59,565 nucleotides of DNA, taken from NCBI RefSeq assembly GCF_905250085.1, contig NZ_CAJNOB010000056.1:63035-122599 (forward strand), given 5' to 3'. The notes under the pieces were generated by a model, which saw nothing but the letters and a program-made list of their open reading frames with translations, did no database searches and had not been told where the DNA came from. Of this stretch, positions 5,715 to 11,544 are shown in pieces. Origin of the DNA: Candidatus Methylacidithermus pantelleriae. Its GTDB lineage: Bacteria > Verrucomicrobiota > Verrucomicrobiia > Methylacidiphilales > Methylacidiphilaceae. The position numbers were made by a program, and so were the translations under genes. The first letter of the stretch is position 1. Every line of letters starts with the position of its first letter.

Positions 5715-6506
5715 CTAACCCCGGAGGACTAGCAAAAGAACCAAAGCAAGAGCGATTCGGTACCATGCAAAAGGAACAAAAGAGCGCGATCGAACATACG
5801 AGAGGAGCCATTTGACACTGACAAATCCGACGAGAGCCGAAACGAAAAATCCAAGGGCTAAGCAAGCCCAAGACTCGGCCGGAGCACGGTGGAAAAAGTG
5901 GGTTTCTGAGTCCAAGGAGTAAAGACTCGCCGCAGCCATGGTAGGGATCCCCAAAAGAAAGGAAAATTCGGTCGCTTCTAGGCGAGTTACCCCGAAATAC
6001 ACGGCTGTAAGAATGGTTGCCGCCGAGCGTGAAAGCCCTGGAAAGATTCCTGCGAAAACTTGAGCGATTCCCACCCATAGAGCGGTTGTCCAGCCGATAC
6101 CATCTTCGTGAACAGGGTTTCGCTGAAAACGGTGCTCCACAAGAAGGATCGCCAGGCTGCCTGCAAGGAGGGCAAGGATGATGGGCCAGAGTTCTGTGGG
6201 CAATTTCCAACCCATTTTCTTAACGAGGAGCCCCAAGACGCTTGTAGCAAGGAAAGCTACTCCAATTTTCCCGAGATAGGCCAGCCCCCGCCGAGAGCTG
6301 GATTGAGTAAAGAGGAGAGGAATTTCCTTTCGGTAAACAAGGACCACCGCCAAAACGGCGCCCAGTTGGATGATGATATTAAAAGCTTCGGAGTGCTGGC
6401 CCAGCCAGTGCTCGGCGATGAGCAGGTGAGCCGTGCTCGACACCGGGAGGAACTCGGTCAGTCCCTCAAGGACTCCGAGGAGGATGACGGCCCAATATGT
6501 TGCCAT
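5715..6506 (-). CDS. uppP: Undecaprenyl-diphosphatase (UppP/BacA)
   Basis: This integral membrane phosphatase recycles undecaprenyl diphosphate to the monophosphate carrier used for peptidoglycan and O-antigen export; it also gives bacitracin resistance. The 263-residue product has the family motifs: ExxxE in VLEGLTEFLPVSSTAH (residues about 12-27) and PGLSRSA at residues 156-162, in a background of about eight hydrophobic segments. The start at 6506 (MATYWAV) places the first helix at the N-terminus as in the family; a longer frame to 6590 adds a charged stretch not expected here. It ends about 250 bases from the small lipoprotein gene and is transcribed in the same direction as the ABC exporter genes upstream, but about 290 bases separate them. 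Confidence 0.93.
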   Translation of the reverse strand: MATYWAVILLGVLEGLTEFLPVSSTAHLLIAEHWLGQHSEAFNIIIQLGAVLAVVLVYRKEIPLLFTQSSSRRGLAYLGKIGVAFLATSVLGLLVKKMGWKLPTELWPIILALLAGSLAILLVEHRFQRNPVHEDGIGWTTALWVGIAQVFAGIFPGLSRSAATILTAVYFGVTRLEATEFSFLLGIPTMAAASLYSLDSETHFFHRAPAESWACLALGFFVSALVGFVSVKWLLSYVRSRSFVPFAWYRIALALVLLLVLRG

Positions 6507-6794
6507 GGGACTTTCTTTTTTGCCCGAATGGCTTTGTAGATCAAGAGCCAGATAACGTTGGCGTGCGATCCCTCGGGAAGAAAAGGCCACAATCCCTCTT
6601 TGGTGTCCTGCTCTCCAAACGCTGGATCGATGAGGCAGAAGGAAACCCTACCCTACGGTCACACACAAGAGGCCTGAATGGGGGTGAAGATTGGAGGTAC
6701 CCAACGGTTACTTGAGCGATGGCCCTTGTGAGAGGGGCATTCCCAAAAAAATGGCTTTTTGGTTTTTCCAAAACAAAAACGAGCGCTTTTCGGG

Positions 6795-8597
6795 TTATTT
6801 CCCCCTGCCACAAAAACTCTCGTACAGGGAGCGATATCGTCCTTCCCGCTGGACTAACTCCTTGTGGGTTCCTTTTTCCACCAATAGCCCCCGCTCTAAC
6901 ACCCAGATTTCGTCCACCCAGTTTACCGACGACAATCGGTGGGAGACTATGAGTGTCGTCTTCCCAAGGGAGAGCTTTTGGAAGGCTCTTTGAACCATTT
7001 CTTCTGTTCGCGAATCCAGTGAAGCGGTTGCCTCATCGAGGATCAGTATCTTGGGGTTGGCTAAAAACGCCCAAAGCAGAGCTAAAATCTCTTTCTGACC
7101 ACTGGTAAGGGCTGACCCGGCCGGGCCCACCTCCGTGAGATACCCGCAGGGCAATTCTTCGAACCATTCTTCAACCCCCAATTCCTTGGCTGCGCGTTGG
7201 ACTTCCTTGAGAGAAGCTCTTGGCTTGACCCACCGGAGGTTATCGAGAACGGTGCCACTAAAGACAAACGATTCTTGGGGAATCCAAACCATCTTTTTTC
7301 GCAGTTGCTGGATTCGCCAGCTTCGCAAGTCTTCCCCGTCGATCTCGATCCGGCCTCGTTGCGGTTCATAGAATCCCAGAAGGAGTGCGGCAAGCGTGCT
7401 TTTTCCCGAGCCGGTGGGGCCTACCAGGGCCACTCTTTTCCCTGGTTCAATGTGAGCAGAGATTCCTTGGAGGACCCAAGTGTGTTCGGGGGTGGAAGGG
7501 TAGCGAAAAAAGACATCTTGAAAAATAATCTCTCCTCGGATGGGCAACGTGGAACGCCTGGCAGGCGACCGCCTTTGCCCGTGGACCGGTTGCAAGAGTT
7601 GCCAGGCGCGTTCCGCATGGATCAAGGCGGCCAGAAGGGAAAAAGACAACTCGCCTAGAGATCGGATTGGCCCGACAAGGATACCGAGATACAAAAGGAG
7701 GGCCGTGAGTTCTCCAATCGTCAGTTTGTTTCGCCAAACCAGATAGGCTCCGTATCCCAAAAGGGTGGCATGGGCCATCCCTGCAAGAATCCCTAAGCCG
7801 AAAAGATAGGTCTGCTGAAGGCACCGGGACCTCACGGCTTGCCGAACCCAGCGCGCGTGTTGCTTTTCAAGCCGAAGAAGACTGCGATTTTCTCCAGCCA
7901 ACGCCTGGACAAGGGGAGCCAAACGAATCGCTTCTGCGAATCCTGCCGCAAGCTTGGAAGATTCTGCGGCCAGTTGTTCTTGAGCCAGGAGGCTTTTTCG
8001 AGGCAGAAGGATGCTCATACCGATGGCAGCCCCTAGAAAAAGACCAAGGAGTCCAAGAAGGCGAAGATCTCGCCATGCCATTATCAACCCCACCCATACA
8101 AGAAGCGTTACGCTTGCCATGGCTTTTCCTATTCCCCAGGATAGGAAGGGTTCGATCCGGTCTAGCTCGCAAGAAAGCCGAGCCACCAAGCTTCCCGTCG
8201 GCAGAGACTCGAAAAACTCCAGAGGCAACCCCAGCACGCGAGAAAAGAGGCGTTGTCGGAGCCGGGCAATCGCTCTCTGGCCGGCCCGGACACCGCTTGC
8301 CATTTCTCCCGCCCGAAAGAATGAAAAACCAAAAAGGCTTCCCACAGAAAGAACGAGGATGGGTCCAAAAGCCTGAAGGGAAGGGCAACCGGCTCGGTTT
8401 TGACCGATCCACTGATCGACGCCTTTTTCTACGCAGATGGGGAAAAGAAAGGCGCAGATTCCCTGGCCGAGACTACAGAGGCCCGCTAGAAAAGAAAGTT
8501 TCCAATAGGGTCGCAAAAGGGAAAGGAGCCGGGCCAGTCTCTGCAAGGACTGGACACGTTTTTGCCGAGGTTGAGGCAAAGCCCATGCGGAGATCAT
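6795..8597 (-). CDS. ABC exporter half-transporter, catalytic-site subunit of a heterodimer
   Basis: This is a type I ABC exporter half (about 600 residues) with an N-terminal six-helix membrane domain (about 40-330) and a C-terminal ATPase domain (about 360-600). The ATPase has Walker A GPTGSGKST, Q-loop IPQESF, Walker B with catalytic glutamate LILDEATASLD, and an H-loop histidine (IVSHRLSS). Its signature motif is LTSGQ instead of LSGGQ. The start is set at 8597 because the ATG overlaps the stop of the upstream gene (ATGA), which indicates translational coupling; the frame stays open to 8762. With its partner (8594-10327) it should form a heterodimer in which this subunit supplies the competent Walker A/B. 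The substrate (lipid, peptide or drug) cannot be read from the sequence. Confidence 0.9.
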   Translation of the reverse strand: MISAWALPQPRQKRVQSLQRLARLLSLLRPYWKLSFLAGLCSLGQGICAFLFPICVEKGVDQWIGQNRAGCPSLQAFGPILVLSVGSLFGFSFFRAGEMASGVRAGQRAIARLRQRLFSRVLGLPLEFFESLPTGSLVARLSCELDRIEPFLSWGIGKAMASVTLLVWVGLIMAWRDLRLLGLLGLFLGAAIGMSILLPRKSLLAQEQLAAESSKLAAGFAEAIRLAPLVQALAGENRSLLRLEKQHARWVRQAVRSRCLQQTYLFGLGILAGMAHATLLGYGAYLVWRNKLTIGELTALLLYLGILVGPIRSLGELSFSLLAALIHAERAWQLLQPVHGQRRSPARRSTLPIRGEIIFQDVFFRYPSTPEHTWVLQGISAHIEPGKRVALVGPTGSGKSTLAALLLGFYEPQRGRIEIDGEDLRSWRIQQLRKKMVWIPQESFVFSGTVLDNLRWVKPRASLKEVQRAAKELGVEEWFEELPCGYLTEVGPAGSALTSGQKEILALLWAFLANPKILILDEATASLDSRTEEMVQRAFQKLSLGKTTLIVSHRLSSVNWVDEIWVLERGLLVEKGTHKELVQREGRYRSLYESFCGRGK

Positions 8598-10327
8598 GCC
8601 ACAAGCAGGCCAGCCGGTAAGAGGGTGGGGCTCGTTATCTCCCGGTACGGACCGGGCTGGGCGAGAAGCTTTTGGTGGGTTCCCTCCTGGGCGATTGTCC
8701 CGTTTTCCAGTACAATGATCCAGTCGGCTTTCTGGAGTAAGAAAGGCCGGTGGGTGACCCATAGGATCATCGGCATGGGATCGAGGCTGACAAGGCGTTT
8801 CCAGATCCTCGCCTCCGTTTCGGGATCGAGGTTCGTGGTAGCCCCGTCAAGAATAAGAACCATCGGTTGCAGAAGAAGGGCACGGGCCAAAGCCAGGCGC
8901 TGTTTCTGGCCTCCGCTCAAACGGATTCCCCGCTCCCCAATGACGGTTTGGTAACCATTGGGAAGGTTTTCGATAAATTCGTCCGCGCAGGCAATTCGGG
9001 CGGCTTCCTCGATCCTTTTTCGGCTCGCATGGGGAAGCCCGAAGGTAAGGTTTTCCTGGATCGTCCCGTGGAAAAGGAACGGTTCCGGAAAGACGTAGGT
9101 GACGGATCGGCGGAGGCAGGAAAGAGAGAATTCCCGAAGGTCGACATCGCCCCAGAGGATGCGTCCGGTCGTTGGATCGTGAAACCTGGGCAAAAGCGTA
9201 AGCAGAGCTGTTTTTCCCGAGCCGGTGGGCCCGGTAATCACCACAAAAGTTCCCGGCGTTAACGTAAGGCTAATATCCCTAAGAATGTGGGCGTGGTTTC
9301 TTGTGAGCCCGACCCGATCGAAGACCAGGGCCGCCGGCCGCCGGCCCGGGACTCGCTTGCCAGAAGCTAGAGGTTGCACCCCGCAAAGAAGCTCCTCGAT
9401 CCTTGAGGCTGACGCGTGTGCCGCTTCCCAAAGGTTGGAGAGGTGAGTCAACCCGCAGACTCGATGAGCAATGGAAACTAAATAAATGAGGATTTTCGCC
9501 AGATCCCCGACCGGAAGCGTCCCTTGAAGGGTAAGACGTCCTCCCATCCAGAGGACTCCGGGAAAGGCGAGCGCAAAAAGAACATGAGCGGTCGGAAGGC
9601 GGGTGGCCCAGAGCCAAACCCCCGAGAAGAGTTCTCGCAGGTACTCTTTTTGCTGGGCGAGAAGCCGCCGCCTTTGGATTCGCTCAAAAGAAAACGCCCG
9701 CACAAGACGCAGAGCAGTGATCGACTCCTCCATGATCCCCACGAGGGAAGCGTAGAAGGAGTGCACCCTCTTCCATTGGCGATGCAGTCGTAGAGATCCC
9801 CGCACGACCCGGGCAAGGCTTGCCAGGAGAAGCACTACAGTCAACAAGCCGAGGGTGGGGCTAGCCGAAGTAATAAGGGCTAGGGCAAGGACGAGGTAAA
9901 GGGATGTGTCAAAAACGGCCATCGGGAATCCTCGAAGAAATTCCTCTACGTTCCGAAGATCGCTGATCGTGCACGAAAGGAGGTCTGCCGTAGAAGCAGA
10001 CCGTGTGTTCCACCCCAGGGCTCGTTGCTGAGTTGCTCGAAAGACATCTCTTCGGAGTTCTCCGAGGACCTCCCCTATCCATCGTACCTCCGTGATGCCC
10101 GCCCAAACCAGTAATCCTTCTCTGGCGGCTGCCAGGAGGAGACAGAGTCCCGCATACCACCCGCAAAAAAGGACGGAGTCAGGGGAAGCTCCTTTTGCCA
10201 GCTGGTTAAGGCTTGCCCCGATTATGTGGGGCAAGACAAGTTCCAATGCTACGGCCCCGGAAAGGGCGACCAGGCAAAAAAACAAGCTTCTCGGGCGATG
10301 TTTGAAGTATCGGAGTACTACCCCCAT
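8594..10327 (-). CDS. ABC exporter half-transporter, degenerate-site subunit of a heterodimer
   Basis: This 577-residue ABC exporter half lies first in a two-gene operon. The membrane domain covers about residues 15-310 and the ATPase about 330-560. Walker A is GPTGSGKTA, the signature is canonical LSGGQKQR, and the H-loop is VTHRPF. Walker B reads LILDGATTNLD: glycine stands where the catalytic glutamate should be, read directly from a GGG codon on the minus strand. This subunit's own ATP site is therefore expected to be weak or inactive, while its good signature completes the site formed with the partner's Walker A/B. The neighbour carries the reciprocal defect (LTSGQ signature). The stop overlaps the partner's start by four bases. 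Confidence 0.9.
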   Translation of the reverse strand: MGVVLRYFKHRPRSLFFCLVALSGAVALELVLPHIIGASLNQLAKGASPDSVLFCGWYAGLCLLLAAAREGLLVWAGITEVRWIGEVLGELRRDVFRATQQRALGWNTRSASTADLLSCTISDLRNVEEFLRGFPMAVFDTSLYLVLALALITSASPTLGLLTVVLLLASLARVVRGSLRLHRQWKRVHSFYASLVGIMEESITALRLVRAFSFERIQRRRLLAQQKEYLRELFSGVWLWATRLPTAHVLFALAFPGVLWMGGRLTLQGTLPVGDLAKILIYLVSIAHRVCGLTHLSNLWEAAHASASRIEELLCGVQPLASGKRVPGRRPAALVFDRVGLTRNHAHILRDISLTLTPGTFVVITGPTGSGKTALLTLLPRFHDPTTGRILWGDVDLREFSLSCLRRSVTYVFPEPFLFHGTIQENLTFGLPHASRKRIEEAARIACADEFIENLPNGYQTVIGERGIRLSGGQKQRLALARALLLQPMVLILDGATTNLDPETEARIWKRLVSLDPMPMILWVTHRPFLLQKADWIIVLENGTIAQEGTHQKLLAQPGPYREITSPTLLPAGLLVA

Positions 10328-10452: not shown

Positions 10453-11394
10453 TTATAGACTGCCCGTTGAATTGGTTCCGGATGAGGGGTGAGCCGGAGG
10501 GGTACCCAGCTTGGCAAACCCATGATCAAAGAGCCATCGGGCATCCTGCCATTTATTGGGGCTGGCTAGCAGTACCAGATGCAGCTCCGAGCCATCCCGG
10601 CGGCAACAGGCCGCGAAGGTATGTAGGCTTGATCGAGTCCATCCGGTTTTGGCAGGGCCCATCCCGGGGTATTTCCCGAGAAGCTTGTTGTGGTTCTTAA
10701 TCCAGTGTTCTCCACTGGCCGTGATCAAATGGAACGCCGGCGTGGCACAAATGGTTCGCAGTTCCGGCACTCGCAATACGGCCTCAAAGATCCGAAGAAG
10801 GTCTCGTGCAGTAGTCCACTGTCCCGACGCAGGTAGGCCGTTAGGATTAACAAAGTGGGTATGGGTACATCCCAATTCCCGTGCTTTCCGATTCATTTCT
10901 TGAACAAAGGCAGCGACCGACCCGCTGGTATAGCGGGCCAGAGCCAAAGCTGCATCGTTTTCGGAACCGATCAAAAGTGCCCAGACCAGGTCACGAACAC
11001 TCACGGTTTCTCCCGGAACCAGGGGAATGTGAGAGGGTTCGACCCGGGTGTCTTCCGGCCGAATCCGGACCCATCCAGCCAAGCCGGTCTTTTCGTAAAC
11101 GATGAGTGCCGTCATGAGCTTGGTTGTGCTTGCGGGGGGCAAGGGGAGGTCGGCGTTACGCTCAAAAAGGACCCGGTTGTCCACCGGGTCATACAGGAGG
11201 ATTGCGGTAGCTCTTGGCAGGGACGACTCCGGAAAGGGTCGTCCTTCGGGATGCGGGCGCGGGCCGACCGGTCGGGAATGCTTTTTGACACCCGCGGCAA
11301 GGCTTGGCTCAGCTGGCCACAAAAGAGCGACGATGGCCAGAGTAACGAATCCCAAGCGGGCCTGTGGAAAGGCCTGGAAACGTCTTCGTCCCAC
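10453..11394 (-). CDS. D-alanyl-D-alanine carboxypeptidase (PBP5/DacA-like), short form
   Basis: This penicillin-binding serine peptidase trims the terminal D-Ala from peptidoglycan stem peptides in the periplasm. With the start I propose it has 313 residues. A signal peptide has basic residues, then LGFVTLAIVALLW, with cleavage near SLAAG. The three catalytic motifs are STTK (about residue 89), SEN (about 144) and KTG (about 249). GTG at 11394 was chosen because AAAAAGGGGG lies about six bases upstream and the signal peptide starts there; the frame remains open to an ATG at 11529, which would add 45 residues with no signal character. The C-terminal beta domain and amphipathic anchor of E. 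coli PBP5 are missing, so the protein may be periplasmic and soluble. Confidence 0.9.
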   Translation of the reverse strand: MGRRRFQAFPQARLGFVTLAIVALLWPAEPSLAAGVKKHSRPVGPRPHPEGRPFPESSLPRATAILLYDPVDNRVLFERNADLPLPPASTTKLMTALIVYEKTGLAGWVRIRPEDTRVEPSHIPLVPGETVSVRDLVWALLIGSENDAALALARYTSGSVAAFVQEMNRKARELGCTHTHFVNPNGLPASGQWTTARDLLRIFEAVLRVPELRTICATPAFHLITASGEHWIKNHNKLLGKYPGMGPAKTGWTRSSLHTFAACCRRDGSELHLVLLASPNKWQDARWLFDHGFAKLGTPPAHPSSGTNSTGSL

Positions 11395-11544
11395 CACCAA
11401 CCCCCTTTTTATGAAACGAGTTGGACTTGCTGGGCAAGCCTTTTTTGTTTTTTCAGAGCCTAAGAGCCGCCTGCCTGTATGCCTTTTTTCTTGAGGATGG
11501 GATCGATCCGGCTTCCTCAAAGGCTGCATGGAGCCCGCTTTCTT

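Follow-up and report, generated by a model that had tools for sequence, protein, structure and literature searches.

In TM287/288 and TmrAB, two exporters of the ATP-binding cassette (ABC) family, the change in the Walker B motif is to Asp. TmrAB combines one degenerate and one canonical ATP site, and the sections of a review that deal with such transporters name Asp, Met, Ser and Asn as catalytic residues of degenerate sites and call the functional origin of the degenerate-site pattern in human transporters enigmatic (PMC7756269). The reason for the retention of an inactive ATP site in many ABC exporters is still debated. Here we analyse two adjacent genes for half-size ABC exporters, subunit 1 and subunit 2, from a stretch of 59,565 nucleotides of Candidatus Methylacidithermus pantelleriae (assembly GCF_905250085.1, contig NZ_CAJNOB010000056.1, positions 63,035 to 122,599 of the forward strand; the whole stretch is hereafter called the window), in which the catalytic position of subunit 1 is neither Glu nor Asp, but Gly. 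The source bacterium is probably a thermoacidophilic methanotroph.

Each ATP site of such exporters is composite: one domain supplies the A-loop, Walker A, Q-loop, Walker B and H-loop, and its partner supplies the X-loop and the signature (PMC7544095). As described in the same study, ABCB11 has a Met at the catalytic position; this Met alone rendered ABCB1 inactive, which the authors ascribe to locked ATP, and ABCB1 with the Met and three further ABCB11-like site-1 residues regained activity, with simulations pointing to weaker ATP binding (PMC7544095).

Results

Motifs of the gene pair

Both proteins are ABC exporter half-transporters, with a transmembrane domain (TMD) followed by one nucleotide-binding domain (NBD). 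PF00664 (ABC_membrane) scored 67.7 bits for subunit 1 and 91.7 bits for subunit 2 (cut-off 28), and PF00005 (ABC_tran) 95.9 and 105.5 bits, respectively (cut-off 25). More specific assignments were tried and rejected: the MsbA model (TIGR02203) gave 271.5 bits for subunit 1 and 298.1 bits for subunit 2, below its curated cut-off of 602; the SmdA/SmdB models (MdlAB; NF008055/NF008056, cut-offs 845/746) gave 255.5/160.7 bits for subunit 1 and 204.2/220 bits for subunit 2; and the CydDC models (TIGR02857/TIGR02868, cut-offs 435/329.05) gave 214.9/206.3 and 224.9/198 bits. Coordinates of all features are collected in the table below.

A preliminary description, made from the letters of the window without database searches, had claimed that the two genes overlap by four bases, that subunit 1 combines a Walker B Gly with a good signature, and that subunit 2 combines a Glu with LTSGQ. 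Indeed, we read an ATGA at the junction, LILDGATTNLD with the codon GGG together with LSGGQ in subunit 1, and LILDEATASLD with the codon GAG in subunit 2. Because each site draws motifs from both domains, Gly495 and LTSGQ would share one site (site 1) and Glu522 and LSGGQ the other (site 2). The canonical site is complete in its motifs, with the A-loop Tyr, K399, Q441, D521, E522 and H553 of subunit 2 and LSGGQ and GERG of subunit 1, whereas most motif residues of the degenerate site are altered, with Lys372 of Walker A, Asp494 and His526 of subunit 1 retained. In the X-loop of subunit 2, the Arg found in 8/8 clade relatives is replaced by Ala493. By its motifs, then, the pair is confirmed as a putative combination of one canonical and one degenerate composite ATP site, as the preliminary description had proposed, and the presence of both genes in matching halves of a heterodimer clade (see below) agrees with this. 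Its account of the defects was right for the Gly and LTSGQ and overlooked the further losses in the Q-loop, A-loop and X-loop of the degenerate site. These losses are stronger evidence for a dead site than the glycine alone.

Table. Features of the exporter gene pair and its flanks (window coordinates)
Feature	Position	Strand	Site	Basis and remarks
Subunit 1, half-size ABC exporter, TMD + NBD	8594..10327	(-)		577 aa; PF00664 + PF00005, tree, model
Subunit 2, half-size ABC exporter, TMD + NBD	6795..8597	(-)		600 aa; PF00664 + PF00005, tree, model
ATGA stop/start overlap joining the two genes	8594..8597	(-)		open reading frames; subunit 2 start is the ATG within
Subunit 1 A-loop Arg343	9299..9301	(-)	degenerate	alignment; clade relatives Tyr 7/10, His 3/10
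Subunit 1 Walker A GPTGSGKT, intact	9209..9232	(-)	degenerate	alignment, codons
Subunit 1 Q-loop Pro414, replacing Gln	9086..9088	(-)	degenerate	Gln in 173/174 aligned; codon read
Subunit 1 X-loop GERG, intact	8927..8938	(-)	canonical	alignment
Subunit 1 signature LSGGQ, intact	8906..8920	(-)	canonical	alignment, codons
Subunit 1 Walker B catalytic position Gly495, codon GGG	8843..8845	(-)	degenerate	codon, alignment
Subunit 1 H-switch His526, intact	8750..8752	(-)		alignment, codon
Subunit 2 Walker A GPTGSGKS, intact	7398..7421	(-)	canonical	alignment, codons
Subunit 2 Q-loop Gln441, intact	7275..7277	(-)	canonical	alignment, codon
Subunit 2 X-loop GPAG	7116..7127	(-)	degenerate	alignment; clade relatives with ERG or DRG motif
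Subunit 2 signature LTSGQ	7095..7109	(-)	degenerate	alignment, codons; clade relatives LSAGE
Subunit 2 Walker B catalytic Glu522, codon GAG	7032..7034	(-)	canonical	alignment, codon
Subunit 2 H-switch His553, intact	6939..6941	(-)	canonical	alignment, codon
uppP/bacA, flanking gene, not part of the pump	5715..6590	(-)		PF02673
dac, D-alanyl-D-alanine carboxypeptidase, flanking gene	10453..11529	(-)		PF00768

Descent of the two subunits

In a tree of 50 chosen rows, subunit 1 falls into the subunit-1 half of a verrucomicrobial clade (bootstrap 100, Shimodaira-Hasegawa approximate likelihood ratio test (SH-aLRT) 100) and subunit 2 into its subunit-2 half (100/98). This tree superseded an earlier one (FastTree) that omitted 5 of 160 rows (3 truncated, 2 longer than 750 aa), with two near-clade subunit-1 members. 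The end branches of both window proteins are very long, 2.37 for subunit 1 and 2.49 for subunit 2 at a median of 0.53. A recent duplication of one gene into two was rejected, as constraining the two proteins to be sisters costs 95.5 log-likelihood units (p value of the approximately unbiased test, p-AU, 2.84e-51); the adjacent half-transporter genes are thus diverged and not recent duplicates of each other. From the separate, matching placement of the two subunits and the rejection of the sister tree, it is most likely that both genes were inherited together from an Asp-bearing heterodimer.

Most near relatives come from querying 384 genomes of the class with one clade subunit 1, which returned close subunit-1 matches in 10 genomes, including the query's own, in three other families. 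The subunit-2 gene adjoins the subunit-1 gene in 9/11 clade genomes, with one of the nine neighbours and one subunit-1 copy broken; in the remaining two (G522 and G510), no subunit-2 gene was found beside subunit 1 within the stretch fetched. In the eleventh genome (G460, added from another search, where L155 and L191 are the same stretch) the subunit-1 copy has an in-frame TAA and its subunit-2 neighbour is open. The subunit-2 gene of G496 (L184, 140-2267 (-)) is broken, and its two fragments align with successive portions of an intact relative.

At the catalytic position, the clade's ten readable subunit-1 relatives encode Asp throughout, seven with GAC and three with GAT, and none has Glu. 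The preliminary description had held that close homologs with Glu would speak against its reading; none turned up, where "close" is relative, as the homologs found reach at most 40% identity. We know of no name for this clade (L157, L162, L183-L190). It has in common with the window pair that the subunit-1 gene comes first, that subunit 1 has LSGGQ, and that subunit 2 joins a Glu to a degenerate signature; it differs by an Asp (10/10) where the window pair has Gly, by a Q-loop Gln that is retained, and by a partner signature that reads LSAGE where the window pair has LTSGQ. Gly495 is a departure inside the clade, which is defined by the tree and not by the residue. The H-switch of the subunit-1 relatives is Gln in 6/10 and His in 4/10, and the window subunit 1 has a His although its catalytic acid is gone. 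Approximately 23-29 extra residues lie between A-loop and Walker A in subunit 1 of L157, L162 and L183-L188, and are absent from L189, L190 and the window subunit 1.

An exact peptide scan of genome contigs yielded 32 loci with a best-segment identity of 27-34% and no near relative, and among plasmids the best 5000 records were all below 60% identity. Across 387 genomes of the phylum, searched with strict thresholds and three candidates scored per genome, we found three subunit-1 relatives (34-39%), members of another heterodimer clade with Asp, and no subunit-2 relative except the window's own.

Conservation within the clade

To compare the window proteins with their clade, we used 10 subunit-1 rows (without the broken G460 copy) and 8 subunit-2 rows (without the broken G496 copy). 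Rows were trimmed so as to begin at the first Met in their open frame, which left subunit 1 of L162 at 457 aa, so TMD positions before about residue 153 were excluded for subunit 1. Clade-invariant NBD positions are kept at 57/67 in subunit 1 and 71/110 in subunit 2. The ten changed positions of subunit 1 include Q414P and D495G, with LSGGQ and GERG retained, and those of subunit 2 include 493, 498, 499 and 501, with K399, Q441, D521, E522 and H553 retained. Invariant TMD positions are kept at 29/58 in subunit 1 (from about residue 153 on) and 60/157 in subunit 2. Both genes are open across 1,177 codons, and full-length open frames at such divergence suggest selection on function and argue against decay.

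Frequency of glycine at the catalytic position

In a first alignment of 160 exporters (164 matches, 158 once nested copies were removed, plus the two window proteins), the catalytic position was Glu in 96, Asp in 60 and Gly in 1, with no residue in 3. When the near-clade rows were added and a doubly fetched locus was counted once (176 in an earlier count), the 174 distinct exporters, sampled by similarity to the window proteins or to their relatives, gave Glu in 101, Asp in 68 and Gly in 1, namely subunit 1, with 4 lacking the position. All 68 Asp-bearing exporters have an SGGQ-type signature in the same protein, and wherever both motifs are readable, non-consensus signatures occur only on Glu carriers. 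In this sample, an asymmetry with complementary defects is thus ordinary for such exporters, and the arrangement is well known. The Q-loop Gln is present in 173/174, with Pro414 of subunit 1 as the exception, and the A-loop position is Tyr in 163, His in 7, Phe in 3 and Arg in 1.

The DNA of 286 genomes of the class was also scanned for the pattern D-G-[A/P]-T-x-x-h-D, which occurred at 9 places (5 in a backward control); judged by context, only the window's own match lies in an ABC domain. With Glu or Asp in place of the Gly, the pattern occurred at 357 places in 29 genomes (control 0), counted without a check of the ABC identity of individual matches. A natural glycine at the catalytic position was not reported in the literature searched, in which coverage of subscription journals was poor. 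Within these samples, the glycine together with the Q-loop proline is a rare variant.

Predicted structures

AlphaFold2 produced whole exporter folds with a mean predicted local distance difference test score (pLDDT) of 85.9 for subunit 1 and 82.2 for subunit 2, from input alignments of 27 and 23 rows in which both subunit types were mixed. Among solved structures, the best matches to the subunit 1 model include TM287/288 (Z 33.5, root-mean-square deviation (rmsd) 3.4, 556 residues aligned), TmrAB (Z 33.0, rmsd 2.5, 562 aligned) and TAP, on a par with PCAT1, MsbA and a large number of further exporters. The models confirm a predicted exporter fold and say nothing on function or on a heterodimer.

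Genomic neighbourhood

The pump is flanked by uppP and by a D-alanyl-D-alanine carboxypeptidase gene, two families that act in cell-wall synthesis. These two genes are adjacent in 12/12 other genomes of the family that were searched, with 54-87 bases between the matched stretches, compared to 3,865 bases, including the pump, in the window. No uppP lay within the approximately 1.5 kb flank of the carboxypeptidase gene in any of 17/17 loci from other families of the order, three of which were cut short; altogether, 31 loci were examined and 12 showed the adjacency again. An insertion of the pump between the two genes in the lineage of the window fits best, and loss of the pump in the other two genera is not favoured. 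As the pump was probably inserted there, its neighbours are poor guides to its substrate. Each of the 13 family genomes has two carboxypeptidase matches and one uppP, and outside the window's genome, in the other 12, a single one of these two copies adjoins uppP.

The G+C content at third codon positions (GC3) is 0.616 for subunit 1 and 0.559 for subunit 2, as compared to 0.548-0.608 for 13 other window genes; subunit 1 is slightly higher, and the composition of the pair gives no clear sign of a recent foreign origin. The window as a whole has a GC content of 56.0%, and the metagenome-assembled genome (MAG) of Candidatus Methylacidithermus pantelleriae PQ17, assembled with MEGAHIT from MiSeq reads, is described with 55.2% (PMC8170126). 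Promoter-like sites numbered 2 where 2.0 were expected, and terminator-like sites 14 where 11.2 were expected.

Discussion

In all likelihood, the two genes encode one heterodimeric exporter with unlike ATP sites, in which ATP is hydrolysed at site 2 and site 1 is weakly binding and non-hydrolytic. Site 2, in which subunit 2 contributes Walker A, Gln441, Glu522 and His553 and subunit 1 contributes LSGGQ and GERG, would be complete and competent to hydrolyse ATP, and this hydrolysis would drive each transport cycle. Site 1, made of Walker A, Pro414 and Gly495 of subunit 1 with LTSGQ and GPAG of subunit 2, would give no useful hydrolysis because no carboxylate positions the water. ATP binding there should be weakened as well, since the A-loop Tyr and the Q-loop Gln are gone together with the X-loop Arg and the signature Ser of the partner, so that the site would reopen without hydrolysis instead of being locked shut. 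By analogy, the combined losses in site 1 would fit the same logic as ABCB11-like sites. What the sequences show directly is the two genes, their motifs, their membership of a heterodimer clade and the retention of site-2 motifs beside changed site-1 motifs; heterodimer formation, the direction of transport and the kinetics of the pump are inferred.

A number of observations weigh against this interpretation. Within the clade, the branch that makes subunit 1 sister to its neighbours has weak support (85/47), and both of the window proteins were flagged as long branches. A near ortholog was not found for either protein, the best identities in the clade being 40% for subunit 1 and 34% for subunit 2. 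Subunit 2 has lost 39/110 invariant NBD positions, many of which lie away from the degenerate site, and some of its divergence is therefore general. With His at the A-loop in 3/10 clade relatives, the A-loop change alone says little. Lastly, the source is probably one metagenome-assembled genome.

The main rival to a weakly binding site 1 is a variant of the same model, in which site 1 binds ATP tightly as a lasting clamp that joins the ATPase domains while site 2 fires repeatedly, as in CFTR. We regard it as possible but rather doubtful: Lys372 of Walker A, Asp494 of Walker B and His526 are intact in subunit 1 and, according to the review, the degenerate site of CFTR retains ATP for minutes; yet subunit 1 has neither the A-loop Tyr nor the Q-loop Gln, its partner has other residues at the signature Ser and the X-loop Arg, and mutation of the A-loop Tyr of CFTR shortened ATP residence (PMC7756269). 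Taken to the other extreme, the alteration of A-loop, Q-loop, catalytic acid and the partner's signature and X-loop could mean that site 1 holds no functional ATP at all, in which case the pair would be a natural one-ATP exporter working on a single nucleotide and derived from an Asp-type ancestor. This appears improbable, more so than the clamp.

The remaining readings fare worse. If the genes were decaying after their acquisition, the site changes would be functionless losses, and the very long end branches of both subunits and the changes in subunit 2 at 39/110 clade-invariant NBD and 97/157 TMD positions would be accounted for. Both frames are nevertheless open at full length in spite of this divergence, the canonical-site motif residues that were checked are kept in both genes, and both subunits have confident predicted folds, which makes decay very unlikely; the GC3 of the pair is neutral on the question. 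There is scarcely any chance that Gly495 is an assembly or sequencing error for Glu or Asp. The probable origin in a single MAG built from short reads with MEGAHIT (PMC8170126) leaves room for one. A single miscalled base is however an unlikely origin, because GGG is two base changes away from the GAC or GAT of 10/10 clade relatives, and because one wrong base would presuppose a Glu codon at 495, which no clade relative read has; nor could one error explain why this site is also degenerate in its Q-loop, its A-loop and the motifs of the partner. Self-pairing is common among half-size exporters, and the complex of subunit 1 with subunit 2 is a predicted one, so each subunit might work as a homodimer with the gene overlap merely coupling expression. 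Such homodimers are just as hard to credit as a sequencing error, as that of subunit 1 would lack a catalytic acid in both of its sites and that of subunit 2 would have two degenerate signatures, and both kinds of gene lie side by side in 9/11 clade genomes.

Apart from its degenerate site, the proposed heterodimer is an ordinary exporter. Its interest lies in the comparison it offers: a natural pair that has lost the acid, along with Q-loop, A-loop and partner motifs, and its Asp-type relatives in the same clade bear on whether loss of the carboxylate forces weaker ATP binding, as in ABCB1 engineered after ABCB11. TM287/288 and TmrAB, two bacterial heterodimers of solved structure, resemble the window pair in that they are built of half-transporters and combine a degenerate site with a canonical one. 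Subunit 1 and subunit 2 both match them in sequence, so the likeness is one of sequence and fold; they have Asp at the catalytic position where the window pair has Gly. TAP1/TAP2 (ABCB2/B3) is likewise a heterodimer with a degenerate site, and subunit 1 matches TAP1 structures, but in TAP a deviation of the H-loop is described as accompanying the other changes (PMC7756269), whereas His526 is kept in the window, and the function differs. In Pdr5, as in the window, many motifs of one site are changed together (PMC7756269); unlike the window pair, Pdr5 has the inverse domain order common with ABCG, an Asn at the catalytic position, and replacements of the Walker A Lys and the H-loop His. ABCB11 (BSEP), a full-length bile-salt pump, shares with the window pair a non-acidic catalytic residue, and its signature and the surroundings of its Q-loop Gln are changed as well (PMC7544095), but its residue is Met rather than Gly, and its Q-loop change lies beside the Gln, whereas in the window the Gln itself is replaced.

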